From Rhodamnia argentea (taxonomy: Eukaryota > Streptophyta > Magnoliopsida > Myrtales > Myrtaceae), in NCBI RefSeq assembly GCF_020921035.1, contig NC_063150.1, forward strand, positions 29,187,826 through 29,251,825: a stretch of DNA of 64,000 bases, given 5' to 3'. Positions 5,650 through 55,369 of this stretch are shown one piece after another. Below the pieces are notes generated by a model, which worked only from the letters and a program-made list of their open reading frames with translations, was not told where the DNA came from and did no database searches. Position 1 is the stretch's first letter. Every line of letters begins with the position of its first letter. Both the position numbers and the translations under genes were made by a program.

Positions 5650-8600
5650 TCAGTTATCAGTCGAGAGCCCATTGATCGGCCAATGTTTCTGCGAATAAGA
5701 GTCGTGTGCGAGCGACTGCATCAAAAGAGCATAAACATGAACCGTGTCAACACAAGTTCAAGCAGGAAAAGGGAAATGAGAGAAGTTGAAGCAATTACGC
5801 TACCTGTTCCTGCGAGCGGAAGTACACAAAGGGAGTGTAGTGTAGGAAATTCGAAACTCTTGATGTGTATATATCAGCATACCTGCATTTGTTAATGTTG
5901 AGCCAAACGAACATCCATGAGACTCCTCATTGCTCCTATATTTGATTGTGGATTAAGAATGCATTTTAAAGGGGAAAAAAGAAGTACTTCTCAATTTGTC
6001 TCATCAAGTGGCTTTTATCCCATAGACCCGCTCGCGACAGAAAGCCCCACCTAATGACAAGTCAAGAACGAGCAAATTACTTTTGTAAGGCCTCAACAGT
6101 GAAGGGAGAGCACAAACAAACGAGTTGACTATTTAAATAAATCATGATTAAATCAGAGTTTCTGCAACTTAAGCAGATCAAGCGGCACACCTTCTATTGA
6201 ACAGCTCGCCATCTGTTTCTAACAGTGGTGCTATTTTTTTGTCTAGTCTTTGCATGACAATCAGCAACTTCTGCATGCTTTCAGTGAGTTCCTGATCGTC
6301 CATGCCTGTCGCAGCTAGTGTCTGCATATTCAGAGAAAAGCGAATCAATGATGTGCAACATTGCAAGTATCGCCCCCATAAGTAATAACTTCCAGAAATA
6401 AGCCAAAAACAAGAAGACAGAGATGTCGATTGGAACTATTACAGAGGTAAGAAGAATATAACAACATTTATGGCCTCACAAAGTTGCTTAGCCCAAAGAA
6501 AAAAAAGGGCTAAAAAGCCTCGCTTACCTGTGCTGGACGCCCTTTATTTCGCCTCTGTGAAGCGAGCCGCAGCTGGTTAAAGAGATCCCCGACAACCTCT
6601 TTTTGGTTTATGAGATCTATCAAAGTGGCTCTGTGATCTCGGCTTCGAATTAAAGCGCTGTACTGTAGTGTCAACAGCTTTGTAAGAGAAAGCGAAAGCT
6701 GAGAATATGCAATCATTGCACCATAGCCATGGAAAACTCCTATACATGACCACAAACATTTCCAAACATTATGATTTATGACTACTATATGAGGCTATAA
6801 AATCCCCATGAGCTGAAACTTTCTTTTATCCTAAAAGATGTTGCTGCATTACCATACCTCTGAATGAAAGGAACAACCAATAAGAAGAAATCATGAATTC
6901 CTACAAATATTTATGTTTAGTTTGGTCAGATATGCATACTCCGTAAAATAAATACTCTCACTAACCTCCTCCTCCAATTCTCGACAGATTAATGCCGTTC
7001 TCCATCGTAAATGAAGTTTGGACTGACTGACATCTGTGTATATATGGTCACCCACGTATAATATTTCATCACCGTGTATATTGAGAGAATTCTCTACCAT
7101 TTGAGCACTTCCCCCGGAATACAAGCCCCCTGCATCAGCGGAACATATAAGCGGAGAAAACACAAGCTGCACAACATGTCAAACATTTAGTACTAAACCA
7201 TCATCAGAAAATAGGTCAAAAAGCTTTCTCGGGGCTTACTTTTGACAAATTAGCACTCCTTACGAAAAGCATTCCTTGTACTTAAAGATCGTTTAAAAAA
7301 AATAAAAACTAAAGACCCAACTGAAGAAATAGTCATTCATGTCAAATTTTACCTTTTTTTTACTGCATTTGATGGGATAAACTTCAAAATTAACTACCAA
7401 CGCAGTAAATTTCCTCGACTTGATGATGATCAAGGGATCTTAACATGATGCTGGACCGATTTTGCCATCTCGATTCAGGCAAGGGTCACTGATGCTGGAC
7501 TTCTTATAAGCAAAAGCATGAAATTACTTCAGTTATTTCAACTTCCATCGGTCCTCAAACCTTTCTAGATTTCTTTTTTCTAGCATATACAAGCACTTTC
7601 TGTGGTAACTGATGACAAAAAGGGTAGAATGAAAGACGCCTTTCAAACAATAAAACTATGCTGCCCAAACATGGCATCTCATTGACAAAACATGGCATGA
7701 GTTCAATAGGATGGAGATAGATCACCTGTACAAGCCTTGAAACAAGGACGCATCAGACCCTCACCAGTGACCACTTCGTACATTGGATGCGACATCTGGA
7801 AAAATTCAGGCTTTTTTGCTGATACAATAACCTGCAATACGAGAAAAAGGATGTATATATGCACAGTGTACACTTGATTGTCTGGAGGTTGTTCTGAAAA
7901 ATCGGCATATTTCGTTTTATTGCAAGACGCGAACTATATCCAAGTATGAGAGAGAACTGCTGGATTCCTTTAAGAGTTACTTGAATGGAAAAATTTTCAC
8001 AATCACCACAAACAAACTTTCACCTTCCATTATGTGCATTTTAAATAAACTCTTGACCAGAGCTTATTTCTTGAGAGCTCTAAATGATGTAATACAGCCA
8101 GAGTAAATATTAAGTAATCAGAAATGGATCCACTTACAATGTCGAATAGATCACGCCAGTCCATATCATTAGGGAGAAATCTGTTAAAGGAATGCTTCAT
8201 CATTTTGTCTGTGTAATGATAATCTGAGTTGGTGATAAGCAGAAGTTTTTTACCCGCCTGATGCAATAAAGAAAACAGTAAAATAAGAGTATGATATCTC
8301 CACCTACTTTATCGGGGCCAGTAACAAGCCATACCTCCTTCTGATCCAACAGGGCTAGAGGTAGTTCCGGATCAGGCTCCACAAACAGTTCAGGCTTAGA
8401 CATTATCTCACTCTGCATAAATGCTAGTAACAGTCAGTTTCTTTAACACCAAAAGAAATACATCGATAGCTGTGTGTGTGTATAGCTAGGTACATGCAAA
8501 CACACACGCCCATGCGCACACGCATATAGTCATTACCTTCAGCTGACCTTCCACGTGAGCCCTGAAGAGAGCCTTTCCAACAGCCTGAGGACAATTGTAT

Positions 8601-20039: not shown

Positions 20040-23000
20040 ATGGGCAGAGAAATGAGCTCAAGGCAGACTTCATCATCAAGAAACCACTTAGCAGAAGTAG
20101 AGCAAGTGATGAAGGACGGAGCTAAAATGCTACCATATCATAAGTTGTTTTCTTTTGCTGACTCCTTCGATTACTTCCTCATGTTTCTCGGCACAATTGC
20201 TGCCATCGAAAATGGGATTGCCACGCCACTTATGACTGTTCTGTTTGGAGATCTAATTGATTCTGTTGGGAAAAATTTCGACACCTCAATCGCCGTACAC
20301 GAAGTCAATGAGGTATCACTTAATCTCATGAATGAGCAACTAACTGGCTTTTCGAGGGAAATTGTCTTATATCTTTCGTGGTCCCGAGATATTCTTCTCA
20401 GGTTCCTCATATCAGATTTAGTGGCTCAAGTCTGCTATATGGCAATTATGTAGAGCTTGACTTTAGTTTTCTCCAACTTGATACACAAAATCGGGTAATC
20501 ATCAGTGTCAATTGTATATCTTCAGGTTTGCTTAAAGATCATCTATTTGGCTCTGGGTTCTGGTTTCGCATCATTTCTACGTAAGGAGCTAGAAATTTGT
20601 GTATTGACTGGGTTGCATTGCCTTTGAACTTTAGAGGATCCGAGTGTAGAATAATAACATGGAACAAATTGTGCATTTGATAATGTGCTAGAGGTCGCTT
20701 GCTGGATGATCACAGCAGAGAGACAGGCCACACGGATAAGGAATTCGTACCTGAGAACAGTTCTGAGGCAGGAAATCGCTTTCTTTGACAAGGAAACAAG
20801 CACAGGAGAGATAATAGTGAAGATATCGAGCAACACCTTTCTCATTCAAGAAGCCGTGGGCGAGAAGGTACTCGCTGTTGCGTGTGCAAAATTGATACTG
20901 TCAATTCTTTTTGTGATTTCTGTTGGTTTGATGTCGCTATTTGTCATTTGTTCAGGTAGGAAATTTCATACAGTTCGTAGCGACATTTCTAGGAGGCTTC
21001 TTCATAGCTTTTGTGAAGGGATGGCTATTCACTCTAGCCATGCTGTCCACCATCCCGCCTCTTGTCATATGTGGTGCCATCACGGTGAAGCTCACAGGCA
21101 AACTAATGTCGCATGCACAAGGCGCTTATTCGGTTGCAGCGACAATTGTAGATCAGACAATTGGCTCAATCAGAACAGTAAGCAAGAATGTAATCGATAA
21201 AGTATGACACCACTATAATTGTTCTCTTCCTTCGTGTGATGTAGAAATCCTATTGTCACAGGTTGCATCTTTTTCGGGCGAAAAACAAGCCGTAAAGAAG
21301 TATAACAAGTCACTTATCAAGGCATACCGGTTTGGAGTACAAGAGGGCTTGGTCGTCGGGTTGGGCTTCGGCATGCTTATGTTTACCGTGTTCTGCAGTT
21401 ATTCATTCGCAGTGTGGCTCGGCGGGAAAATGATAGCTGAAAAAGGGTACACAGGAGGGCGTGTCATTAACGTAGTCTTTGCAGTGTTGCTTGGATCCTT
21501 GTAAGTCGTGACATCCTGTTTTGCCGTTATCATTTGATATTTTTGCCCATCTGAAACAAGCTAACAAGATTTTCAACATTTTATTTGGACCCCTTTGAAA
21601 GATCTCTGGGCCAAGCATCTCCTTGTTTGAGTGCGTTTGTTGCTGGACAAGCTGCGGCATTTGAGATGTTTGACGCAATGAAAAGGAAGCCGGAGATCGA
21701 TGCCTTTGACAAAAGCGGAAAAAGGTTGGAAGCATTGTCTGGACATATAGAACTAAGAGATGTCTACTTCAGCTATCCGACCAGACCGAATGAGCGGGTG
21801 TTGAATGCTTTGTCCCTGGTAATACCTGGTGGTTCCACTGCAGCTTTGGTCGGGCATAGTGGAAGTGGGAAATCGACCATCGTCAGTTTGATCGAAAGAT
21901 TTTATGATCCACAGGAGGGCGAAATTCTCATTGATCATGTCAACATCAGAGAGCTCCAACTCAGATGGATTAGGGGAAAAATCGGTCTTGTCAGCCAGGA
22001 ACCCGTGCTATTTTTCGCAAGCATCCGGGATAACATTGCGTATGGGAAGGATGGTGCTACAAACGACGAAATAATAGCAGCTGCTAAGGTTGCTAATGCT
22101 GCTAACTTCATCGACATGCTGCCTCAGGTAACTTTTGTTCTTGAATAGTTCGCCAGTGTTCCTCTTCTCTAGTTTGAAAGCTATCAAATCAAAGCCTTCT
22201 TGTCGGAAGCGAGAGCGTTTGTAAACGAGAAGCTGCTTTTGTTTTCATAATTTGATTGCATGTAGGGACTAGCCACCATGGTTGGAGAGCATGGAATTCA
22301 TCTTTCTGGGGGCCAGAAGCAGAGAATTGCCATTGCTAGAGCAGTCCTGAAGGATCCGAAAATTTTACTACTCGATGAAGCCACGAGTGCACTCGATGTA
22401 GAATCTGAACGAGTAGTGCAAGAGGCGTTGGACAGAGTTATGAAGGATCGCACTACTGTGGTTATAGCCCATCGCTTGAGTACAGTCAGGGACGCAGATG
22501 TCATCTGTGTGATTGATCAAGGGAAAATTATCGAAAAAGGTAAACGTTCTTTGTTGTTTGTTTTTTCAATATCTCCAATGCCGGAGTTTGCAGAATAGAT
22601 CGTGACGTATTTTGTCACAAATTGCACTTGCATGATCCAAGGTTCGCATGATGAGCTAGTCAAGAACTTTAAAGGTGCATATAGCCAGTTGTTTCGGCTT
22701 CAAGAAGCTGCCAAAGAGCCAGAAAGGACGCCCGTGAAATATTCAGACCAGAGTCATCTCTTGTTTTCGGCTTCATCCGGGCAGTCGCCTGAATTCAGTT
22801 TTTCATACTCAGACACAGCATCTGAAAAAGGCCTCGGTACCAGCGATTCCAAAGCATCATCACCAGCACCGGAAGTATCTCTCACCCGTTTGGCCTATCT
22901 TAATAGCCCGGAGATTCCGGTGTTGCTGTTAGGCGCGATAGCTGCAGCTTGCAATGGCATCATATATCCAATTTTTGGCTCGATGCTCGCTAGTTTGATC

Positions 23001-25110
23001 AAAACATTTTGCGAACCAGTGGAGGATCTCCGAAAAGATTCCAAATATTGGGCACTGATGTTTCTGATTCTGGGCATGGCATCCTTGGTGGTGACGCCAT
23101 TGAGCATGTATTTTTTTGCCGTGGCGGGGTGTAAGTTGATCAAAAGAATCCGGTCGATGAGTTTTGAGAAGGTGGTACACATGGACATAGGTTGGTTCGA
23201 TGAAACCGAGCACTCGAGCGGTGCGATTGGCGCAAGGCTTTCGACAGACGCGACGTCGGTGCGTCTTTTGGTGGGAGACACTCTTGCTTTGCTTGCGCAG
23301 AATGCTGCGACAATGATCGCTGGGTTGCTCATCGCTTTCAAAACAAACTGGGAATTGGCTCTTGTGATTCTCGCTTTGCTTCCCTTAATTGGTATCAGTG
23401 GATATGTTCAAATGCAGTCCATGAAAGGCTTCAACACAGATGCAGAGGTCTGTCCCTGACATTGTTGAGTCCAGCTTAGAGCTAACATATTGAACAAAAA
23501 GCGCGAAAATTTGACAGATGAACAACATGGAACAGACTTTTTGTATAGTGCATAGAGTACAGGAATTTTGCATATTAAGTGGTTAGTCTAATCAGTCCAA
23601 TTGTATATCTGCAGAAATTGTATGGGGAAGCAAGTCAAGTTGCTAGCGATGCGGTCGCCAACATGAGGACAGTCGCATCGTTCTGTGCCGAAGAAAAAAT
23701 GGTAGCACTTTATCAAACAAAATCTCGAGGCCGTCTAAAGGGAGGAGTTAGGAAGGGAATTATAAGTGGTATCGGCTTTGGATTATCGTTCTTTCTTCTA
23801 TTTTTCGTCTATGCTGTGAGCTTCCATGTCGGAGCTGAGCTCGTCGGCCAAAATAAGACAACTTTTCCTAAGGTTTTTCGGGTAAGTTTCTCATTTCGCT
23901 CATGCATCTGATGCATCTTTCTCCTAGGCTTTCATGTCCCTGACTTCGGTTCAATAATTTGCATGGCAGGTCTTTTTTGTATTGACAATGACGGGAATCG
24001 GAATTTCGCAGTCGAACTCCCTCGCACCCAATGTGAGTAAAGCAAAGAGTTCGGTTGCTTCCATATTCGAAATCTTAGACCTAACATCTAAGATCGATGC
24101 CAGTGGCAACCGTGGAACTACTCTAGCAAATGTGAAAGGAGACATCAAATTTCATCACCTAAAATTCAAGTATCCAACTAGGCCTGAACTCCTAGTATTC
24201 AAAGACTTCTGCTTGTCCATCCACTCTGGTCAGGTACAACAATACAAGATTAGCTCGTTCCTCTCAGTCTTTTCACTCTCGATACGCTTAATCTGATAAA
24301 GAGGCTTGTCAGCTCAAACGCGGTAAGTTAAAAATTTCATGTGTCTCCTCTCATGTACTAGTCAGTTGCTTTGGTTGGAGAGAGCGGGAGCGGAAAATCG
24401 ACGGTAGTATCTTTGCTGCAAAGATTTTATGACCCTGATTCTGGTCGAATAACCTTGGACGGAGCCGATATACGGGAGCTAAACTTGGAGTGGTTAAGGG
24501 GACAGATGGGTCTGGTGAGCCAAGAGCCTGTCCTGTTTAATGACACGATCCGTGCTAACATCGCATACGGGAAAGGCGGCAGTGCAACAGAGGCGGAGAT
24601 CGTAGTGGCGGCGGAGTTGGCCAATGCTCACAATTTCATCAGTGGCTTACAACAGGTTGAGGCTTCAATCTGTCAACATGCTTCTAAGGTTTCAGAGTCT
24701 TCATTTGGGTTGCCAGTTATTACTGACGATGACATTGTAAACATGCACAGGGTTACGATACAACAGTGGGCGAAAGAGGGATTCAGTTGTCCGGTGGGCA
24801 AAAGCAGCGGGTGGCGATCGCCAGAGCCATAGTGAAAAACCCAAGAATCTTACTGCTCGACGAAGCTACGAGCGCTCTCGACATTGAATCCGAGCGGGTG
24901 GTCCAGGATGCCCTGGATAGAGCCATGGCGAGGCGGACCACATTGGTGGTGGCTCATCGGTTGTCCACGATCCGCCGTGCAGACGTCATCGCAGTGCTAA
25001 AAGATGGCGCAATTGTCGAGAAAGGGAGCCATGAGACTCTGATGAACATGAGAAACGGAATCTATGCTACCATGACAGCACCACATGATAGAGTTGCGTC
25101 TGTCAAATGA
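20040..25110 (+). CDS. ABC transporter B family (P-glycoprotein/MDR type), 12 exons
   Basis: Full-size plant ABCB transporter, closest in feel to the ABCB4/ABCB11/ABCB21 clade, several of which move auxin; the substrate is not readable from sequence. Exons: 20040-20312, 20526-20580, 20692-20867, 20956-21177, 21262-21500, 21602-22127, 22266-22539, 22642-23447, 23615-23881, 23970-24233, 24362-24655, 24751-25110. The product is 1251 residues, normal for the family. The layout is TMD1-NBD1-linker-TMD2-NBD2. NBD1 has Walker [10 protein letters not shown] (406-414), signature LSGGQ (510-514) and Walker B ILLLDE (530-535). NBD2 has Walker [10 protein letters not shown] (1040-1048), signature LSGGQ (1145-1149) and Walker B ILLLDE. 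Q-loops (VSQEPVLF) and H-loops (AHRLST) are intact in both. TMD1 around residues 149-168 ([11 protein letters not shown]) is more divergent than I expect. It should act in the plasma membrane. Confidence 0.92.
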
Positions 25111-36984: not shown

Positions 36985-38418
36985 ATGGAGTCGCTCTCCT
37001 CCGCCGCCGCTTCGGGGCGGTTCCCTTGCTTCTCCGGCGCCGGGATCGATTCCCGCCGTGCGAATCCAATCGGTGAAATCAGGGTTTGCAGCGGCAAGGA
37101 TCGCGAGGGATATGCCAGATCGAGGGTGTCTCGCGGCGTTTTGAGGTCCGAGTTTGGTGATGATGGACATGTGAAGTATTACGGTGGGAAACCTCGGTTT
37201 GGTTTGAACAAGGAGGGGAGGAAGGAAGGTGGGAATGCGGAGATTAAGAAGAAGCTGAAGATGTCGAAGGGATTGACGAAGGAGGAGGATTTTTCTGAGT
37301 TCTATTGGATGGAACGTCGTGGTGGTGGTGGTAGTGGTGGAGACGGTGAGGTTATCGAAGGTCAGGAGAAGCCAATCTCGGTACGTTCCTTTGGTTTTAG
37401 GTTCCGCTGTTGGAGTTTTCCTTCAATTGCTCGTTAATTTAATTCTGTTGTGAGGTGATTTGTGGTTTGGTTCTATGGCTGATCTGATTGGCGATGGTGT
37501 TTTTTGGCCAAAGGAAGCGAAAGATCCTTGTTTTTGGGATCTGCTCTCACTTAAATCTGATTCAGGGTTGATAGTTATGCATATTTCTGTTACCCTATCT
37601 GAAAATTCATGATCTTTCCGTGTAAATTGGCTTCCCATGAAGAACAAAAAAAGAATTCAATGAAGCTATCACTAGTTGAAGGTTGATTAATTCTGAAATT
37701 TGTGCTTTTGGTGGAGTACTTCTTGCTTGGATTTTATTGGTGTTGGTGGGTTTTCTGTCAAATCATTGTGGTCATTGTCATGCAGGAAGCAGCAGAGGTT
37801 TTGCTGAAACAACTTGAACAGCTGAAGGCAGAGGAAAAGGGGCTGAAGAGAAAGATAAAAGAACAGAAGGCCAAGCTTAAAGCGGAGCGAAAGAAAGTTA
37901 TGATGGATTCGGAGTCGTCGTCGTCGTCCTGCTCCTCGGAATCAAGTGACAGTGAGTGCGGAGAGGTGATTGACATGGGCCGCCTGAGGACGGAAGTTCT
38001 TGCGAAAGAAGAGGGCAACAATGCCGGAAATCTGGCGTTGCCAAATGGTGTTCTGTACCGCGAGGCAACGACTGGCTTTCCTAGCGATGTTGCAGCCAAT
38101 GGTGCGGTGACAAAGAGGATCGAAGTTTGCATGGGTAAGAAGTGCAAGAATTCAGGAGGACCGGCGTTGTTGGAGGAATTCAAGAATTTGGTTGGGGTCG
38201 AAGGTGCTGTTGTTGAATGCAAGTGCCTGGGCAAGTGCAGGGATGGCCCTAATGTGAGGGTCTCGAATAGCTTGGGTGAGAATCAAGCTCCTGAAGCGGA
38301 TGATTCCGTCAGGATTCCGGCGAATCCTCTACTTATCGGGGTCAGTTTGGAAGACGTCAATGCTATAGTGACCAAATATTTAGGGAAGGACGAAAATCTG
38401 GAGTCGAATGTGGCATAG
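36985..38418 (+). CDS. DGAT3: Soluble diacylglycerol O-acyltransferase 3 with thioredoxin-like [2Fe-2S] domain
   Basis: DGAT3 is the cytosolic enzyme that transfers acyl groups from acyl-CoA to diacylglycerol to make triacylglycerol; the Arabidopsis member is At1g48300. Two exons, 36985-37380 and 37786-38418, give 342 residues, close to known plant DGAT3 lengths. Visible parts are a Ser/Arg-rich N-terminus, a Gly tract (GGGGSGGDGE), a Lys/Glu coiled coil (about 133-172, LKQLEQLKAEEKGLKRKIKE), a Ser run and the C-terminal thioredoxin-like ferredoxin fold. That fold has CMGKKC (C247, C252) and CLGKC (C279, C283), the CX4C...CX3C pattern that binds a [2Fe-2S] cluster in this family. The start ATG at 36985 opens MESLSS; no earlier in-frame ATG was found. 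The gene lies head-to-tail after the CHUP1-like gene and tail-to-tail with the remodeller. Confidence 0.88.
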
Positions 38419-38750
38419 TCGCTGTGCTGGATGATTTGCTGTATATGCACTGGCATTCAAGGCACAATTCAGTAAATATGTATTCTATCTTAAGCTAAGA
38501 GTGTCTGTTTTTGTTGTAAGGTCTCTCGCTCTGTTTCTTTACGCATCCACCGAGTGCAGAGGTCCCTCTATAATGTTTTCTTTGTGGGGATTTGACCCAG
38601 TCGTAATTTCCTTCATTTGACATATGCATACTGGTGGACAAATTCATATGGATTACTGAGGAAAATATGATCGCTCTATTGACATCTGTAGTCCCTTCGT
38701 AGAGGGTTCTTTGCTCGAAATTATTTCATCATATATCCAACTTTTAATTG

Positions 38751-38954
38751 TTGGGAATGATCCTGGAAAGAAAAATTACTTAATCTGCTTGAAGATGTTC
38801 GGTATACACAGCAATAACTGATGAAGTGATGAAAGCGTTAGCAATTCAATCTTTGGGAATGTTCCTGGAAAGAAAAGTTACTTGATCTGCTTGAAGATAT
38901 TCGGTATATACAGAAATAACTGATGAAGTGATGAAAGCGTTAGCAATTCAATCT
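38751..38954. repeat. Direct tandem duplication, 2 x 102 bp
   Basis: Bases 38751-38852 are repeated at 38853-38954 with few changes (shared CTGATGAAGTGATGAAAGCG and TAGCAATTCAATCTTT). It is non-coding, about 330 bp after the DGAT3 stop codon. Confidence 0.85.
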
Positions 38955-40166
38955 TTCCAGGGTCTCGACAAAGTCTTGACTTGAATACAGTATGTCAATT
39001 GAGCCTCTGCAGTACAACAATACTGAGATTCTATACCTACACAATCTGTAGGAAATCTTAATACCAATTCTTTGTCGCCCGACAACAATCCCAATGGAAG
39101 CTAAAAGCTTTCGTGTAACTGCCCGACATGCAGGAGTACAGGTAGATCAGAACAGCATCAATTTGCTAGAGAAGGCCAACACAAAAAGATCTTGGCCAGC
39201 TGACCTCATGCTCCTAGAACTTGACATTTGGAAGGGCAGCTGCCACTTCCGGCAGCAAATACCCAGAAGAATTTGTATCCAATCTTCCTCTTGATGACTC
39301 ACTCCTTCACAGAAAGGTTGAGATCGAAAACAGCCAGCTTAGAAGACTCTTGACACCAGCAGCTCCGAATGAAACATCTGCAAACTTTTTCTGTATTATG
39401 CTCCACCATATGACTCAGCGACAGGTCACTCATGTTATGATGTGCTAGCCCGATCTTATTTGCTATTACGTGTCTCTGTTCGGTACCACTGAATTTTGAG
39501 CGTCTGTCTCTTGTTCTCCTACAATGTTCTTTAACTGGCCAAAATGAACCCTTCCATGGAACTTCGTTTTAACGACCAACACGGAAGGGATAGGAGATTG
39601 TATGGTACCGACCCTGAGGCTTCAGATCTATCTTCCGTGATTCCTGCACCAGTTCATGACTGAACCTGTCGAGCATTCTTCTTACGTCACAAATCAAAGG
39701 CGTGATGCCTTGTATGCTCCAAGGACACCTCCCTATAACACTTTGTTTAGCATTCACTCATTCATCCTATTGAAGCAGCTATGGTCACCTCTGATGTACA
39801 AGCATAGTACAGTTCATTCCATAATTCCCTCTCATGCATCTAAACCCTTCCATATGCTAGTACATCAGCTATTTTCGTCTTCAATGAACAGGTTGTCGAG
39901 GCTAAGCATGGTTATAGCTGCACAAAAGAGGTAGCTCAGATCTATCAATTTAGCAGTTTGTAAAAAATCGTTAATGAACTTCAGTGCTTCCATCCAAAAT
40001 TATGGCAAGACACAAGGAAAAGATAACAAACATGAATATCCAGCAAATTGTTGCTCTTCTAGCGAAACACCTTGCATGCACAATTTCCTAATGGGTTGTT
40101 TTGTGTTATTTATTTCTGCGAAGCATGCATTCCACTTGTACACTACCTTTAAGGGGGCATTAGCAT
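38955..40166. other. Convergent intergenic region between DGAT3 and the SNF2 gene
   Basis: Contains the 3' ends of two converging genes. Balanced composition at 39090-39470 and 39560-39930 with short open frames on both strands, none resembling a known protein. Part of it may be the 3' untranslated region of the SNF2 gene. Confidence 0.35.
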
Positions 40167-43100
40167 TCAATGCCTGGGAAATTTCAGCTTGCGCTGAAGG
40201 TCAGAGGGGTCACCATTGTTGCAACGCTTCACGAACGAGTCAAGTGTTTTCTGCTTGCCAGGGCTATTAAATGTTATCTGCTTTGCAGGGCTGTTGCTAG
40301 TTGGGTGGCTAGCTGAGACTTCCAATGTCTTTCCATGGCCATCAAGCACCTAATTTAGAAAGCAGAGTAAGGGTGAAACTTTTCCAAGAGTATCAGCATC
40401 ACCCCAAGAAAGAGAGAGATACTATCAGGAGCACTGCAAAAGAGAGGGTATAGACATGGAGTAGTTGTTTCGGGAATATGGGTAGCAGGCATTAATAACA
40501 GCAGTAAAATATAAAGAAGCATGATAATTTAGAGCTGACTACTGAGCAATTCACCTGATGTTCAGAGGGGTCATTGTTAACTACACAAGTGTGTTTTCTG
40601 CTTGCGGTTTAAATGTTATCTGCTTTGCGCTTTGCTAGTTGGTGGCTGCTGAGACTTCCAATGTCTTTCCATGGCCATCAGCACCTAATTTAGAAGCAGA
40701 GTAAGGGTGAAACTTTTCCAGAGTATCAGCATCACCCCAAGAAAGAGACTATCGAGCACTGCAAAGGGGTATAGACATGGTAGTTGTTTCGGTAATATGG
40801 GTAGCAGGCATTAATAACAGCAATAAAATATAAAGAAGCATGATAATTTAGAGCTGACTACTGAGCAATTCACCTGATGTTCAGAGGGGTCACCATTGTT
40901 GCAACGCTTCACGAACAAGTCAAGTGTTTTCTGCTTGCAAGGGCTATTAAATATTTTCTGCTTTGCGGGGCTGTTGCTAGTTGGGTGGCTAGCTGAGACT
41001 TCCAGTGTCTTTTCATGGCCATCAAGCACCTAATTTAGAAAGCAGAGTAAGGATGAAACTTTTCCAAGAGTATCAGCATCACCCCAAGAAAGAGAGAGAT
41101 ACTATCAGGAGCACTGCAAAAGAGAGGGTATAGACATGGAGTAGTTGTTTCGGGAATATGGGTAGCAGGCATTAATAACAGCAATAGAATATAAAGAAGC
41201 GTGATAATTAGAGCCGACTACTGACAGCAATTCACCTGACCCAAATTTTCCAGCTTGCTCTGGACAACGTCCCTGAAAATAAATGTTTGGCAAAGATGGT
41301 TGTTTAAAAGTATCACATAATTGGCCGCAGTCAATATGCACACAACCTCAACGGCGATACTAGCAAAAAAGGAATAGCACCTACCATATTATGTCATCAA
41401 CAGTGTCATTTGCCAGCAGGTAATATATATTGACTGAAGACACCTGAAACACAACAAACAAGCTTGTCAAGAAACCCATATGGACAGTGTTAGAAATTTA
41501 AAAGACAATGACTCAACACTATAATTGTGAACGAGATGAAACTAAAAATGAGTATTGATGACCAATTCAAAAAGATGCTACAAGCTATAGTAGGAGCAAA
41601 TACTCTTTCATGAGCAATGATTGGTGGTTTTTTTAACTACAAAGCCGAATCGAACCTGATTTACTGATTGAACTATGGTCATCAAATTGCAAACCCTCAT
41701 TAGTTAATTTTGGGGCTATAAAGCAACCTTTCAGTCAACATACATAGGAAGCGACAAACTAGTACTGCTGACAGCTGCAGACTTTGGACAACTTTCGTCT
41801 GTCACCTTGATTACAATGCTTTACCTGACCAATCCTGTGAGCACGATCTTCAGCTTGAATTAGATCACCCGGCGTCCACGATAGCTCTGCAAATATAACA
41901 GTGCTTGCAGCTGTTAAGGTCAGACCAACACCTCCAGCTCTGATTGATAGCTGCAAAAATGAATCAAACCTCAGTCTTCATCAATTAAAGGAATTGTAGA
42001 GGAGAATCACGAGGAAAAAAGGGTGACAGTTGATGCATCTGACGTGAAAGAACTTATAATGGAAAATCATGAACTTGAACAAGTAAAAGATAAAGCAACT
42101 GTCATACTACTGCTGCCCTTATTGCATCTTTCCCTTGGAAATCAGTAACCAAAGCTTGCCTTGCCACTGCAGGTGTACTGCCATCAATTCGTATGCAACC
42201 AACCTTCTTCTTCTTCTGTAAAATTATCAAGATGTGTAAACGAAAGATCAATCTGTTAAATACTAAAAGTTGGTCTTACAAGAAGAAATTCATGTATTGC
42301 GTCGATCATTGGCTGGTGATGCGCAAAAATGAGAAACTTGCAGCCTGCCTGCCAAGTATAAGCAGGTTAGAATGTTCTGCCTCCAAAATGCAAAATGCAA
42401 TTGCAGGTACCAAGAATCTTCAGTACTATTAGAGCAAGGGGGTAAAGTTATCTATAACCTCAAGTACATCAACTAGCACTTAATGTAGAGCATGCCTAAA
42501 AGCAGTACTACTGTAGAAAATTTCCACCCAGAATAAGAAAGTTCAATCAGCTAAAGAATCAAATTGTTCATTTAAAAACAATTGAAGCCATTGAAGTCAG
42601 AGATTCACCGCATCAGACTCCCACATAAATTATTAGAGAATATCATGATCATTCCTATCAAAGCAAGAAATCTTTCGAAAGAATGAGATATCTTGGCAGC
42701 ACTTCTTGTTTTAAGTCCTAAAATGGTGATATTTAATGGTGACAGTAGCTCAAATTGCAGAAAATGATAACAAACAATGCCAACACAAATTCTTTTCCTT
42801 CTCTAAGAGTTGAAGAAATGCCAGTGCTAGTCTAGATCACACCAAAATTGAATAGATACTTAATTTTATAAGATTTTCAAAGAAAAAGAAATGTAGCAAT
42901 GGGAGGACATATAAGTTTGAATAGTTTAAGTATGCTCTCTGCATTGCAATTCCTGATTATATCAATAATCAACGAGACAAAACACAAGTTTAACTGTCAC
43001 AATTTCTTAAATCGGAAGTACTAGCCACATACTTATTGGAATGCAAATGGACTAGGAAATAGGTCAGTCGATTACCTCAACAACCGTTTCTAAGTAGTCT

Positions 43101-46100
43101 AAAACTGCTGGGATTTTGGCTTCAGCAGAATCAGTGTATATCTGCAGACAATCAGTGCATTAGAGCGCAATATTTTCTTTTCCTCCAAATTCATCCTGGG
43201 TCAGGGTGGTGGGGTTGGTGTTCATAAATACTTCTAATGAACTGAGAACGATGACCTTAACGGAAATGACTTCACCACAAAATATACTCAGTTTTTACAT
43301 CTTGTGCATAAAGACCTGAATACCTTGCTAATCAGGTTCTTCTCAGAAAATTTGAGCGACTCAGCATCTTCTTTTGATGTGCAGGCCTTGATTCTTTCTT
43401 TTATCACCTTTAACTACAAAAACGAAATCAATTGGCAACTTTCTTTCTTCGCACGCAGAATGTCATTTGCAACTTGCAAGAAACAATAGGGACAACATAA
43501 TAGTGATTAGCCAGAAACATGATATGAACAAGAACTGTCACAAACCATTTACTGCAATTAACCATTCACAAGTCCGAAAAAAGAGCCAGAGCCGGAAATA
43601 TTCATTTTTGGGTAGTTAAGCTAATCAGGCTCCATCTCTAATTCCATCAATTTAAAAACCGACCACATAGCTTGCCAAAATCAGAAAGTTCATATATTGT
43701 ATACTAAAAGCACATATGAAGTAAATAGGGAATTCCACATGCCATGCAACACTTCTCAATAATTGGAGAAGTAACCAGATTCCGTATAGATGAAGGCCAT
43801 TTTTCAAAAACAATTAGTGCCAGCTTTTCCTCTCCAGAATTGGGATCATCTTAACAGCTATTTTGCTCATTCAATGATGTGAACAACAGCAAGCACAACA
43901 AACTAGACCTTATCCCACTAGGTAGGTGCCATACATAAATCCTACTTGTCAATGCACTCAATCTTGCATCAGATCCTCTGCTCTAGATACTCCATATCTT
44001 TTCTTATTGACTCCACATTCTTCAAAGTCTCGCCCACCCTTTCTAGCCCGCTTCACCATTCCTTGATCATATGTCCTCACTGAACCCGAAGGTCCTAGTT
44101 TTAACATGACCGAATCATCCCAAACGTGCTTCTCTCATCTTATCCTTGACTGGAGCAACACCTAATTTTTCCCGAACTGATTCATCATTCCTTGGTCATA
44201 TGTCCTCATTGGACCTGAAGGTCCTAGTTTTAACATGACCAAATCATCTCAAACAAGCTTCTCTCATCTTATCCTTGACTGGAGCAACACCTAATTTTTC
44301 CCTAACTGATTCATTTCTAATCATGTCTTTTCTAGTGCGCCACCACAATCCACAAATCATTCTTGTATCTATTACACTCATTTCGTGCAATGTTGGAGTT
44401 CAAATGCTCAGAACTACGTGCTACAGACAATTCTGTCAGTGCTGGTTCATTTCAATGATATCACATCAGATGTATGCCTTTGGTTTCTGTAAGCCTCAAA
44501 AAAGAAACACCAGCGCAGCAGTAATTTTACTGCTGAATATAAAGATCAAAGTTGCACCCAAACTTTAAAGGAGTAAGTATATATAGTTCGAAAAGTAGTA
44601 AAACCATATTGACAGATAGAAAACAAGGGTAATTTTCGGCTGACAAAAATTGCAGCTCACAATGCCGGCGTTCCCTCTGTCCCCCTCCCTCATACTCACT
44701 AAAACCTTACTGGCAAGGAACAACAAATGGGTAGTAGAAATATGCTGAGGATTTGAAGCAAAGACAGGCTCTGAAAGCTTCAGAAGCTTATAAATATTAA
44801 AAGCATGCAAACCAATTTACTCTATGAAACAATGGCACTAATATATGGAAGTCCATGCAGAAAGGTCCTCCCAAGTCCAATCAACTTATCAAATGCATAG
44901 ACTCAGATGGTTGTCAGGGATATGAAATGAAACTCCCAAGGTAACAAAAGTTATATTTATTCATGTGAACAAGATACAAGCTGAAGCTCCAAAACTACAA
45001 TTCAACTGACTTTGTAGCTACAGATTTTCTCATGATTTTAGTTATTAACTTTAGATAGCCCGATATTGATATGGTTTGATAGTGCAATAAAAAGAAGTGT
45101 TCTATCAAATTAGAACCAAAGTTCTTATAGAAATAATTCACAACCAGGAAACTTTGAGAAGAGAGAAACTGATGCTCCGCCTGAGAACCTAAAATTCCAC
45201 TTCAAAACATCAGCACCTCACACTACAATTGTAATTGAAGTCGCTGGATTAAATTTCTTATGCTTAGGCACACTAAGAAATCAACCAAGGTAATTCAATA
45301 CATATGGTTAAAATTATGCCATAAAGTGAAGAAAACATTTTTCATGTCCAGTCATCTCAAATCAATCTCATTACCTCACAGAACAAAGCATTGATCTTTT
45401 TCATGTCCTTATCAGCCAAATTAAGGAAAACCTGAAACAAAGGCCGAGAAAAACTGATGTAGAAAGATTTGAAAGAGTGTACCGGAGATTGACATCATTG
45501 GGATAAAGCAAAAGCTCCCCCACCGACAAACGATAAAAGCACTGCAAAATGGATTACAAATTCATTCTCGGATGTGTCTCCACACTCATCAGAGTTAAGT
45601 CATGCTTTGCTCGCGGAAGTGTCTAAATCGACTACCCAGCGAGCGTAGATCGCCCACTACAAGACGAAGAAATTGCTCAAGTTCTAAGGTCAGTGACCTG
45701 ACTAGCTACATCAAAGCAATAACTCAATTGCTACTTGGAGTTTTCAGAAAGCAAATCATTAAGAAAATAAAACTTTTCTTAGCCTTTGTTTAAAGAAGGT
45801 TCTCATTTCCCCATAGTGATAGAAATAAAGAACTTAAATGTAGAACATTAACAAGCATGACTGTGCGTATGTTAAACAATGGCTGTAGGAGGACTAATGT
45901 CCAGAAAGAGAGTGGAGACTATAAAAAGTTACCTGTTGCCTGCGTTTAACTGGGAGCTCAGAAAGGACTTCCTTTTTAAGCCTTCGGATCATAACTGTTG
46001 CCTTCATCAGATGGTGCAATTCTTCATGGTTGCTGGTGCCTTGATAAACACCAAAAATTCCCTGAAAAGGTTCTCTTGTTAAAGAAGTAGTCTCCAACAA

Positions 46101-49100
46101 TTATAACTTCAAAGCACAATTATTGGGCAAAGTCAAATGTCACATACGCCCTTGCAATATCTTTGACCGTATTCATGAACATTTTTGTAAACATCTGGAT
46201 AGAGGGCTTCAAGCTGCAACGCATAAACAGGTTAAGTAGACACAAACTTTTGATACATAACTCTAGTTCCTAAAAACTTTACCAGCTACAACTTTAAACA
46301 ACTCAAGTACCTGTTTGTGAAGCTCAATTGGTCTAGACAAGGCAGGGGTTCCACTAAGCAAAATTGCATATTGCGCTTTCTGGAAAGTTATTATTGAAGT
46401 TCAGAGAGAGAGAGTGTGTGTGTTTGTTGTGTCCGCATAATGCATTGTCAATAAAAATATAATCAAAGAGAAAACACGATGCAACATAAAGTTGTGCACT
46501 TCTAACAAACCAGAATTCCAAATATTAGCTGAAAAAGATGAGGCAACTTTCTGAATAACAAGCAAGCATCGAGCTAAAGATGCATGCCATGTGCCCTATA
46601 AATAATTGCCAGAGGAAAACAATCAAACTCAACAAATGAAGTCAGATGTTTCATGTCCAAGCTGTCAGAAGAAACTAAGTTTTGAGCAATCAATCAGATG
46701 ATTGATGGGCAGTCTTCCAGAAACTTCCTCGATGAAAAATATGCATTACATGGGCAAACCAACCTATAAAAAGCATATGGGCATTTGAATTCAGTGATGA
46801 ACGAACTAATATAGAATATACTGCTTTGTAAAGCACTGGAGTCCAGACAGGCGGACACCCTCAATATATCATAAAATTACCAAGCACTGTATTGTATATC
46901 ACTATTGTCTGCCTTGTGAAATGCACATCTAAACTTTCATCTAGCAGGTAAATAGTGCAAATGGCAAAATAACTGATCCAAATTATTAAAATTCATATAA
47001 CCTTTATGACAGGAAGGGAAGCAGTTGTCCTCTTAGCTTGTGCATTTTTCAGGAAATGTGATTCATCTGCAATCACAAGCTGTATGAAAACATCAACTTT
47101 AAAAGCATGCACAGAAACACTAAAAAAGCGCTGAATATAAGAGGCGAAAAAGAATTAGCTAACAAAGGTAGAACATCAAGGATCAGCTTGAAAACTCTGC
47201 ATCAACTTATTAGGATGACTCATTAGGATGGCCATCCTCATCCAATTTACCAGTTTCCATATCTCTAAACAGAAGGCAGAACATCAAGCATCAGCTTAAA
47301 AACTTCCTCACAGTCATGCCCCTTCACTATGACTTATTTTATCCCAATTAAAGAACCAATTATGAAATTATCTAAGGTAAATTAAACAGATGGTCAGAAA
47401 GTAAGATTGATTTGTGAGCATTACCTTGAAATCTGATGACATTAGCAAATTCTGTAGCTTTGGGACAACATCATAAGAAATTATGTTAAAAAGGCCATCA
47501 AGATGTACACTGCTCTTGGTGTTTGAGGACACTATCCTGAATCCACTTCTGTTTGATCCACCACATTGAGATAAAAGAACCTAACAGACAATCACCATTA
47601 GCAAGGAAAGAAGAGACAAGGAAGAATATATAGATTTAAGATGATGACTTCAGATAAAACTCCTAGAAGGCAAGGTCATAGGCACTATTCAATAAATTAC
47701 CATTTCTGACATTGAAAAAACATATCTTAACAACATATCCAGCAACACTAGCATCAGACATATAAGGTCAAAGAGGGCAGCAGCCGAAGTAAGTAATATA
47801 GACAAACAACAGAATAACATACAAGTATGTCTGACGAAGGAATATTTAGCCATTGCTGAATCATCTGCCCAAGGAAAAGAGTAAAAGCATTCAGGCCCAG
47901 ACTGCCATCTTGTAAAATAATAGTTAAAGAGACAGAAAGCAAACACTCACTGTAGCCCAATGCAAACGCAATGAAGATGGTGTGAGCACAAGAACAGGCC
48001 ATGAATCACGAACGCATGCAGCAACAGCGATAGCCTGCGTAGATCGAAAGGATAAGAAGTGCAAACTTAAACAAGGGAAGTCATCAGTCTATGGCTTTTG
48101 CAAGCATCATGCTTCCAAATTCCACAGAATTCAGACAGTACTTCCAAAAGCATCTGTAGAAGTCACATAATTTTCTTCTCCCTTTTGTTGCAAAAGAGAT
48201 CCATGCAAAGACTACAGTTGCAAGACAAATTCTAACATAAATAGATTGTATACACCTGTTAGAATATATAAATTTTCGCTTGCTTTTAGGGTTGTGGTCC
48301 CATCATCTTACATGGTTGGGGTGGTCCCGTTCATCTTTCCGGCCCCTTTTGCCTCCCCAATGAATATTTCCACGCTTAGTACTGGAGGAAAAAAGCGTGG
48401 GGGTGTTAGAATATATAATATTACCCGCTTCTTCTAACTTAAGCTTTTAGGTTTTGGTCCATCAATCTTACAACACCAAACTTAGGGATTATTCTGTACG
48501 GAAAATAAAGTAGGTCCTCATGATAACCAAATACTGGTGTTATCTAATAATAGCATCAAACATAACACATCCAAAGAACTGAAAATTTATTACCCTTCCC
48601 AAATGACCTACTACTCAAAAACCAGATATTGCAGGGAATTCTGCAAGACAGAAAGACAGCCAGGGTTCTAAACTAGAGATCAGGGTAGCACCTGTAAAGT
48701 CTTTCCCAGTCCCATTTCATCGGCTATTAGTACGCGAATTCCATGCTGCAAGACAAACCTGAAAAAAAAAATTTACGCTAGGCAATATTTTATAAATGAC
48801 TAAATTGAGAACTTGATGTTGAATGTTTTAAGTAAAAGAACGTGTCATAACATTTTCTGACAATAGAACATCATAGTATGTACATACCGAACACCATCCC
48901 GCTGAAATGGAAGAAGCTTAGATTCAATAACACTGGGCATACTGCCATATTGTTCTGGCAACATAAAAAGAAAAAAAATCAATGGCTTGATAGAACAGAG
49001 ACGGGAATTAACCCCAAACCAACCCCCCAACCCCACCCAAACAAAAAACAGTGACTCCAACAAAAAATGTGTCTTTATTAAGACTTCACATGCAGCCCAA

Positions 49101-50627
49101 AGTACACTCTCTCATTAATCTCACTATCCAACTTCGACACTTACACAATTTGTTTCGATGTTAGTAATGCACTAAACTAACAATCATTTCAACATATAGT
49201 TTTTTTTTTTTGGTTGAACATTTCAAAATATAGTTAGATCATGCACTTTAATAAAAAGAATCGAGTTCAACAGTTGAATATACTGGACATTTCAGATGCA
49301 TCAACTCTTCACCTTGTAGATCCGGGAGAGCAGCTGCAGCAGCAATAGCTCGGCATACCAAGGGATCCAAGTTCACTATCTGCCAAAACAAGAAGGTACA
49401 TTGTTAGTTGAAAGGAAACATGAAGCAAATGATGGCCATAGAAATCAATATTCATAAGTTGTGGAATAGGGCATTTCCATTGACAACTTGCATAGTCAAC
49501 ACCAACCATTGCCTGATATGAAGTGTAAATTTGCCGACGCATCCATACCTTATAAGACCTTGCAAGATGATAAACTCAACTTGCATTTCTATCTATTTTA
49601 AGTATGCATATACTCATACAGAACATAATACACTTATTTTGGTGAAGAATGATGGGAGGTTATGAGCTACCACCTCAATTCTAGAGCATCGTTCTTCAGC
49701 AAGAACTTTTTCAGCTGATGGCAAAGAAGACAGTGGGAACATCCAAATTCTGCAATGCAATAACACCACCTGTGAGTATGCTATAAGAGCAAGTACACAA
49801 GCCACACAACCACGTCAGATGTTTCACACAAGCACACGCTTGTAGAGAGAGAGAAAGAGAGACCTTTCTTTTGCATTCCAACTGGCATTAGGGATCTTGC
49901 GGAAAGCAGCAACAATAACCTTGTGGAAGATAAATTTAAATGGAGAAACAACATAAAAAAACTCTCTTTCAGTTTTCAAATAAAAGGACTCTTTCACTGC
50001 ATATGACATTGGAGAACACAAACAAACCTGGTCATATGGGAACTTTGCAGCAACATTTCCACTGGAATGAAGATAAAACTTAACAGACGACTTCAGCAGC
50101 TTTTTCCCAGGTTCATCTAACAAACAGTTCACAGTGAAGTTCAAAATCAACACCAGACCGCTGCTTCCGAAACCAGACACAACATTTTAGTCAAAACAAG
50201 ACAAAACAAAATCAGGCCTCATAACCACAACTTGGGAAGGAAAATCGAAGAGGAGCAACAATTTTACCAGCACATGCTCTAGACGTGGCCGGAAAATCTT
50301 CACCCTGCACAACGACGACCGAATCAAAACCGCTGCTACCGAAACCAGGACCGCATTCACTAAAGCGATCACAAGCGATCACACCCAAAACCGTAACGAC
50401 AAGCAAATTCACTAGCGAAAAAAATGAAGCCCCGACGAGCAGGAAACCTTGTTGGGTCGAGAATCGGGGACGACCCGGGAGCTGTTCCAGTCGTGGTTGC
50501 TCGGAGTGGAAACGGGAGACTGCGGCTGGTTCCGGGCGGAATCGCGAGAGCGGGAGAGCTGCTGGAGAGCGCTCCGTTCGAGCGAATCGAAGTCTTCAGC
50601 GCTCAAATCCCAGTCGTCGTCGTCCAT
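40167..50627 (-). CDS. CHR18: SNF2-family chromatin remodeller, SMARCAL1/CHR18 type
   Basis: Annealing-helicase type SNF2 ATPase, orthologue of Arabidopsis CHR18 (At1g48310). Relatives rewind RPA-coated DNA at stalled forks. Exons, minus strand: 50627-50448, 50304-50268, 50116-50028, 49919-49864, 49749-49674, 49379-49313, 48954-48888, 48758-48692, 48034-47951, 47864-47823, 47580-47425, 47079-47002, 46379-46311, 46213-46148, 46061-45933, 45431-45375, 43413-43324, 43141-43076, 42348-42280, 42215-42108, 41950-41825, 41443-41385, 41272-41236, (41029-40874), 40349-40167. This gives 685 residues without the bracketed exon or 737 with it. Motifs: ADEMGLGKT (I), DESH (II), [11 protein letters not shown] (III), FAHHQPM (IV), [12 protein letters not shown] (V), [10 protein letters not shown] (VI). 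An acidic MDDDDWDL start precedes the HARP-like [12 protein letters not shown]. The last coding exon exists in three tandem copies; the middle one is frameshifted. Confidence 0.9.
40201..41235 (-). repeat. Tandem triplication of the terminal exon region of CHR18
   Basis: Three copies of an exon plus its upstream intron. Exon 5' ends lie at 41029, 40684 and 40349 (spacing 345 and 335 bp). Copy A (41029-40874) is an intact 52-codon exon with its own donor CAG/GTGAAT. Copy C (40349-40167) runs on to the stop codon. Copy B (40684 to about 40559) differs from the others almost only by scattered 1-4 base deletions (123 versus 149 nt in the comparable part) and is out of frame. Copies A and C both encode a QKTLDxFVKR motif. 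Confidence 0.88.
43990..44420 (-). mobile_element. RTE-type LINE relic in a CHR18 intron
   Basis: On minus, two frames show the well-known C-terminal signature of plant RTE-like LINEs: [13 protein letters not shown], then [20 protein letters not shown] and LRWFGHVKTR. The second half repeats with a period of about 129 bp (two copies, about 44051-44179 and 44180-44308). Stops and frame changes show it is dead. Only the tail of the reverse-transcriptase protein is left, as usual for 5'-truncated LINEs. Confidence 0.65.
48257..48472 (+). mobile_element. Miniature LTR retroelement (SMART-like), 216 bp, in a CHR18 intron
   Basis: ACACC is duplicated exactly on both sides (48252-48256 and 48473-48477). 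The left repeat (48257-48312) and right repeat (48404-48472) both begin TGTTAGAATATATAA and end ATCTTACA, with CTTTTAGG shared before the end. A purine/G-rich AAAAAGCGTGGGGG abuts the right repeat, as a polypurine tract should. TGGTTGGGGTGG follows the left repeat where a primer site is expected, but it does not match initiator-Met. The 91 bp interior is non-coding. It lies between the exons at 48034 and 48692. Confidence 0.7.
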
Positions 50628-50817
50628 CCCGGGCTCAATTTCGCGCCTTTTCTCGCTTCTCCTTTAATCCCCGGTAGTTCTTCAATGGAGTTTGCAGATT
50701 TTTTTTTTTCCCTTCCGGGTTCTTGGAAGAGAATCGAACCTGCGGAAAGTAAAGTGCTTCGCAGCTGCTGCTTGATACTGGGACTAGCCGTTTCAAGAGA
50801 CCAAACAAGAACAGCCG

Positions 50818-50820
<3 letters not shown>

Positions 50821-50850
<30 letters not shown>
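50821..50850. repeat. (AG)15 microsatellite upstream of CHR18
   Basis: Perfect AG repeat about 195 bp before the CHR18 start codon. On the CHR18 sense strand it is a CT repeat, common in plant 5' leaders and core promoters. Confidence 0.85.

Positions 50851-55369
<4,519 letters not shown>

Follow-up and report, generated by a model that had tools for sequence, protein, structure and literature searches.

Rice CHR721 is described as the rice SMARCAL1 homologue, with 24 exons and 747 residues (PMC8974069). Its last 37 residues (711-747), which include QKTLDAYL at 721-728, bound OsPCNA in yeast two-hybrid and BiFC assays, and the yeast two-hybrid interaction was lost in the Q721 and L724 mutants, in the triple mutant and upon deletion of the box, the change at Q721 being named differently in the text and in the figure legend of that article (PMC8974069). 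For its part, human ZRANB3 carries PIP and APIM motifs plus NZF and HNH domains (PMC8974069, PMC6116012). The PIP consensus has F, Y or H at position 8; PCNA binders include boxes without one or both aromatic residues, and the non-canonical boxes of TRAIP, FANCM and Srs2 bind PCNA, some of them in another mode (PMC6116012). According to the same source, the affinities of most PIP peptides are micromolar, and a protein equipped with several PCNA-binding motifs may thereby be bound more stably or reach more than one ring. At the gene level, tandem exon duplications provide neighbouring exon copies that are open to alternative splicing (PMC9013439).

The window, that is, the whole stretch of 64,000 nucleotides analysed, contains a gene that likely encodes a SMARCAL1-type SNF2 motor of the plant CHR18/CHR721 type. 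The gene was spliced by hand, which yielded a model without internal stops, comprising 25 coding exons (738 codons) when exon A of the array described below is included and 24 coding exons (686 codons) when it is left out.

40167..50627, minus strand: SMARCAL1-like SNF2 gene, from start to stop codon (hand splicing, GT-AG introns, no frameshift)
41236..41272, minus strand: exon 23, the last one before the array, with donor GGTCAG/GTGAAT

Pfam identified SNF2-rel_dom (6.1e-33) and Helicase_C (4.3e-19) in the protein, together with a weak HARP match. When the first 187 residues were used as the query, PF07443 was matched over profile positions 3-35 of 55 (E 6.6e-5, 22.8 bits versus a gathering score of 25), and HARP was absent from the list obtained for the whole protein at E 0.001. 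These matches are in agreement with the assignment to the SMARCAL1/CHR18-type remodellers made in an earlier note on this DNA. A PDB search with the 686-aa protein matched 83 sequences, the best 60 of which were all SNF2-type remodelling or repair ATPases by name, none of these 60 being labelled SMARCAL1 or ZRANB3. ZRANB3 proper, which is recognised by an NZF zinc finger and an HNH endonuclease, was rejected as the identity of the gene, given that the 738-aa model had no Pfam match to NZF or HNH at E 0.001. Rice CHR721 has the same SNF2 and helicase-C domains and is longer (747 aa, compared to 686 aa here without exon A). Both counts of exons give 24 when exon A is excluded, an agreement to be taken as a lead since only coding exons were counted here. 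One scan each of viral contigs and genome contigs gave no relatives in the former, and 22 pattern hits with 0 confirmed in the latter. Rfam, applied to 38000-51000 at gathering scores, gave no match.

The first exon (50627-50448) encodes an acidic start with a tryptophan. This N-terminus resembles a protein-binding motif, and its partner might possibly be RPA. Within the long intron 45374-43414 of the same gene there is a tandem pair of period 129 (44052-44314; 92.5% identity over 134 columns, with 10 substitutions and 0 gaps), a reading of which may be akin to the terminal part of a reverse transcriptase from a plant LINE.

On the minus strand, exon 23 is followed by three tandem units, each consisting of an intron plus an exon; unit A measures 362 nt, unit B 319 nt and unit C 361 nt. 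Their parts, and the TCAG tetranucleotides revealed by comparison of the junctions, are as follows.

41030..41235, minus strand: intron of unit A
40874..41029, minus strand: exon A, with 52 codons in 156 nt, phase 0/0, and its own donor CATCAG/GTGAAT
40685..40873, minus strand: intron of unit B, its first 90 nt without deletions and the remainder with small deletions
40555..40684, minus strand: exon-like copy B, 130 nt, with deletions, no insertions and a stop at codon 23
40350..40554, minus strand: intron of unit C
40167..40349, minus strand: exon C, the last coding exon, including the stop codon
41236-41239, minus strand: TCAG at the 3' end of exon 23
40874-40877, minus strand: TCAG at the boundary between units A and B
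40555-40558, minus strand: TCAG at the boundary between units B and C
40194-40197, minus strand: TCAG within exon C

The three tandem copies of intron plus exon reported in the earlier note were thus seen, and so were its further observations that A and C are open, in frame and share their acceptor (the 20 intron bases preceding both exons are identical) and that copy A keeps a donor that looks spliceable, which resembles that of exon 23 and agrees with it over TCAGGTGAATTGCT. A and C showed 95.4% identity over 367 columns, with 14 substitutions and 2 gap runs in about 360 sites. They are adjacent, homologous, in-frame exons with splice sites of their own, and in this they are like the adjacent exon copies of described tandem exon duplications (PMC9013439). 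The difference is that the duplicated exon is here the terminal coding exon, a copy of which would have become internal by bringing along the donor of the preceding exon.

The junctions suggest how this may have come about. The duplicated segment would have extended from the 3' end of exon 23 (TCAG/GTGAAT, a splice donor) to the TCAG inside the last coding exon, and would have been repeated in tandem. Since a segment of this kind has a donor at its start, the terminal exon in the upstream copy would have acquired one, becoming the 156-nt phase-0 internal exon A. We infer this mechanism from the junctions, and we likewise infer from the sequence that exon A may be included in the mRNA; if spliced in, it would add 52 residues and provide a SMARCAL1/CHR721-type motor with two copies of its tail. 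While a PCNA-binding tail was already known, its duplication by capture of a neighbouring donor would be new, and the locus would show how a terminal exon can be turned into an internal cassette when the duplicated segment starts at a splice donor. At 2.5e-9 to 7e-9 substitutions per site per year, A and C would be about 2-8 million years apart. Our preferred reading, to which we give slightly better than an even chance, is that A and C arose by a recent real duplication that left a donor-bearing internal exon A and possibly a tail with two PIP boxes, copy B being damaged in the consensus.

The coding differences between A and C comprised 7 amino-acid changes and 2 silent ones, and none of them affected Q1, L4, F7 or V8 of the motif described below; with this ratio, no purifying selection is visible on the repeat. 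Differences were found at 9 of 156 exon sites and 5 of 205 intron sites, which is not significant (P 0.17). The fact that selection on A is not visible would also be expected if the duplication were real but silent, with A mostly skipped (41236 joined to 40349) or with B included and a stop reached, so that a single tail is made or the message is degraded. Copy B as assembled does retain its acceptor as well as its donor, and when the reading frame of the gene is carried on into it, a stop comes at codon 23. However, the letters on which this stop depends look false (see below), and the identity of A's donor with that of exon 23 over TCAGGTGAATTGCT and of its acceptor with that of C over the last 20 intron bases means that, judged by identity alone, there is no sequence sign that A has weaker sites than normal. 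We regard a silent duplication as not probable, although it retains appreciable weight beside our preferred reading, in which exon A is available for splicing.

A PIP-box-like motif was located by a motif scan in both open copies.

40910..40933, minus strand: non-canonical PIP-box-like motif QKTLDLFV in exon A
40230..40253, minus strand: non-canonical PIP-box-like motif QKTLDSFV in exon C, which stops 20 residues short of the C-terminus

The earlier note had placed Q-K-T-L-D-x-F-V in each copy. This holds for A and C but not for B, whose three frames, read by eye, do not contain the motif, and the presence of the motif in all three copies was accordingly discarded. Its description of a triplicated last coding exon that amplifies the motif goes too far: that exon is duplicated, in A and C, and the middle copy lacks the motif and looks like assembly-consensus damage. 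Compared to a canonical PIP box, A and C have the Q at position 1 and a hydrophobic residue (L) at position 4, and instead of aromatic residues at both positions 7 and 8 they have F at 7 and V at 8, which makes the motif non-canonical. In shuffles of the 112-residue A+C tail, taken in 60-residue pieces, QKTLD appeared in 1 of 20,000 and a degenerate PIP pattern in 159 of 20,000.

The likeness to the rice tail is close. Both share QKTLD-x-aromatic-aliphatic, with F and V here versus Y and L in CHR721, and the distance from the end of the motif to the C-terminus is 20 residues here and 19 in rice (PMC8974069). A tail-exon repeat is present here, whereas the available text of PMC8974069 mentions none for CHR721. 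PCNA binding by a tail of this kind is supported by an orthologue, and the PCNA link, put forward in the earlier note as an inference, gains support for the family from the binding of the rice QKTLDAYL tail to OsPCNA and its abolition in the Q and L mutants (PMC8974069). The tail is probably disordered. In Pfam, the tail repeat matched NGF, RnlA_toxin_N and Syntaxin-18_N, in each case below the cut-off and uninformatively, a PDB search with a 35-residue tail gave no match at E 10, and a full-text literature search for QKTLDSF gave none either. No repeated PIP tail in the SMARCAL1 family was found among the matches listed, as judged by titles and abstract openings, which is not proof of absence.

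In this species the tail might still not be a PCNA ligand, if V at position 8 abolishes binding, in which case the duplication would be neutral. Position 8 is indeed non-aromatic in both A and C, where the consensus wants F, Y or H (PMC6116012), but rice CHR721 binds with L at this position (PMC8974069), and the boxes of TRAIP, FANCM and Srs2, which lack one or both aromatics, also bind PCNA, though some in another mode (PMC6116012). We thus consider the loss of binding doubtful and retain the reading in which the tail is a candidate PCNA ligand. Taken together with the binding of the rice tail, the statement on multiple motifs in PMC6116012 suggests that an isoform with two tails would be bound more tightly, with a predicted gain in avidity for the PCNA trimer at forks. 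Such a protein would be similar to human ZRANB3, likewise a motor related to SMARCAL1, in carrying multiple PCNA-binding motifs (putative here); the two motifs of ZRANB3 differ in kind (PMC6116012), whereas those found here go back to a single copied exon. Should exon A be used, the one- and two-tail isoforms of a single gene would constitute a natural experiment in multiplying a PCNA-binding tail, and they could be compared directly in binding and fork-reversal assays.

A comparison with other tandem repeats bears both on the reality of the array and on the nature of copy B. Tandem pairs were scanned in 264 kb, namely this window plus 200 kb of the same contig, and a pair had to span 80 or more columns with an identity of 84% or higher, its copies being less than 1500 nt apart. 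The scan yielded 13 rows; the A-C row and a row involving B were left out, and 11 other pairs remained, two of which belong to one three-copy array. Together these pairs had 126 substitutions to 11 gap runs. With 14 substitutions to 2 gap runs, A-C displayed a normal spectrum (P 0.63).

The clear damage in B, and the fact that 14 substitutions in about 360 sites would be within reach of heterozygosity in an outcrossing plant, could suggest that the array as a whole was created by the assembly, which would have falsely joined two haplotypes of one exon as A and C and left B as noise. Against this, the repeat unit is merely 362 nt long and the flanking exons are not doubled in the gene model, both junctions have the TCAG breakpoint in common, and the surroundings are rich in tandem pairs, the 11 others in 264 kb spanning 90-537 alignment columns. 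Furthermore, when the array was used as a query against the 346.7-Mb assembly, it found one place, its own, in a search that scores only the best candidates. An artefact of this extent seems improbable to us, and a real duplication of A and C remains our preferred reading.

Copy B showed a very different pattern. Compared to a C/A hybrid template with a C-like 5' end and an A-like 3' end, chosen to fit B, it had 2 substitutions and lacked 42 nt in 21 deletion runs, with no insertion; compared to C alone it had 5 substitutions and 21 deletion runs, and compared to A alone, 9 substitutions and 23 gap runs. The 2:21 ratio against the hybrid departs strongly from the 126:11 of the 11 pairs (P 2.9e-16). 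Elsewhere in the gene the coding exons read through cleanly, which marks the damage as local. A genuine third exon decayed by mutation is hardly credible and was rejected: B is in register with both boundaries kept, and it resembles C in its 5' part and A in its 3' part, as would be expected after unequal exchange between these two, but its deletion-only spectrum is not that of ordinary mutational decay and the first 90 nt of the unit have no deletion at all. The spectrum of B fits consensus damage rather than evolution. Copy B would then have come from unequal exchange or from the assembly, and consensus building would have removed letters from it, probably as a result of reads that disagreed on copy number, two versus three.

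This kind of loss was simulated by majority-vote consensus of mixes of two- and three-copy reads, with 80 runs per mix. Read errors were assumed to be 1% substitution, 1.5% insertion and 4% deletion, doubled inside repeated letters; these rates, the aligner and the thresholds were the analyst's choice. A loose criterion for B-like damage called for at least 10 deletion runs, at most 2 substitutions and 0 insertions in B, with losses limited to 4 nt in A, 8 nt in C and 2 nt in the flank. A strict criterion called for 14-28 runs totalling 25-65 nt, the longest of at most 12, and a loss of no more than 4 nt from each of A and C. Loose B-like damage was obtained in 46 of 80 runs at 50:50, in 11 of 80 with 60% three-copy reads and in 18 of 80 with 40%, and in 0 of 80 when all reads had three copies or all had two. 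Strict matches numbered 6/80 at 50:50, 0/80 at 60% and 1/80 at 40% three-copy reads and 0/80 at each extreme, that is, 7/400 overall (3/350 in an earlier, slightly mis-phased version). One 50:50 run of a mis-phased version gave 22 deletion runs and 31 nt in B, a result that was not typical.

Mixed reads thus led to patchy, deletion-only damage mainly in B. With three-copy reads only, the median number of deletions in B was 0, and with two-copy reads only, a median of 220-249 nt disappeared from B and of 137-158 nt from C. In the mis-phased version the simulated damage climbed toward the 3' end; the observed deletions numbered 10 in the third 45-nt bin and 11 in the eighth. In the correctly phased version, none of the simulated consensuses had a substitution in B, whereas the real one has 2. 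A single deletion-prone read would also serve as a cause: the probability that at least 21 of 23 errors are deletions was 0.13 for a noisy read with 80% deletions and 0.008 for the simulated profile. Reads of mixed copy number are therefore the cause that we favour for the damage in B, as suggested by the model, without considering it proved. The case is a warning that a deletion-only exon copy can reflect reads of differing copy number and not a pseudo-exon. A more speculative idea, which we consider unlikely, is that alleles with two and three tail exons segregate within one plant, giving motors with two or three PIP boxes, tuned by splicing, for a three-sided PCNA ring.

Other features were recorded in the surroundings of the gene. 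A tandem pair of period 102 (38743-38956), 92% identical over 112 columns with 9 substitutions and 0 gaps, lies in the interval separating the SMARCAL1-like gene from an open frame at 37687-38418, which gave a sub-threshold match to a 2Fe-2S thioredoxin-like domain. Parts of two further genes were recognised by Pfam on the plus strand, each in two open frames: an ABC-transporter gene at 21555-23456 (ABC_tran and ABC_membrane) and an aspartyl-protease gene at 52073-53861 (Asp). A further tandem array was found in L004 at about 7231-8026 (27231-28026 of L002-L009 joined), with about three copies of a unit of about 260 nt; the copies share roughly 96% identity, and two overlapping comparisons gave 26 substitutions and 6 gap runs.
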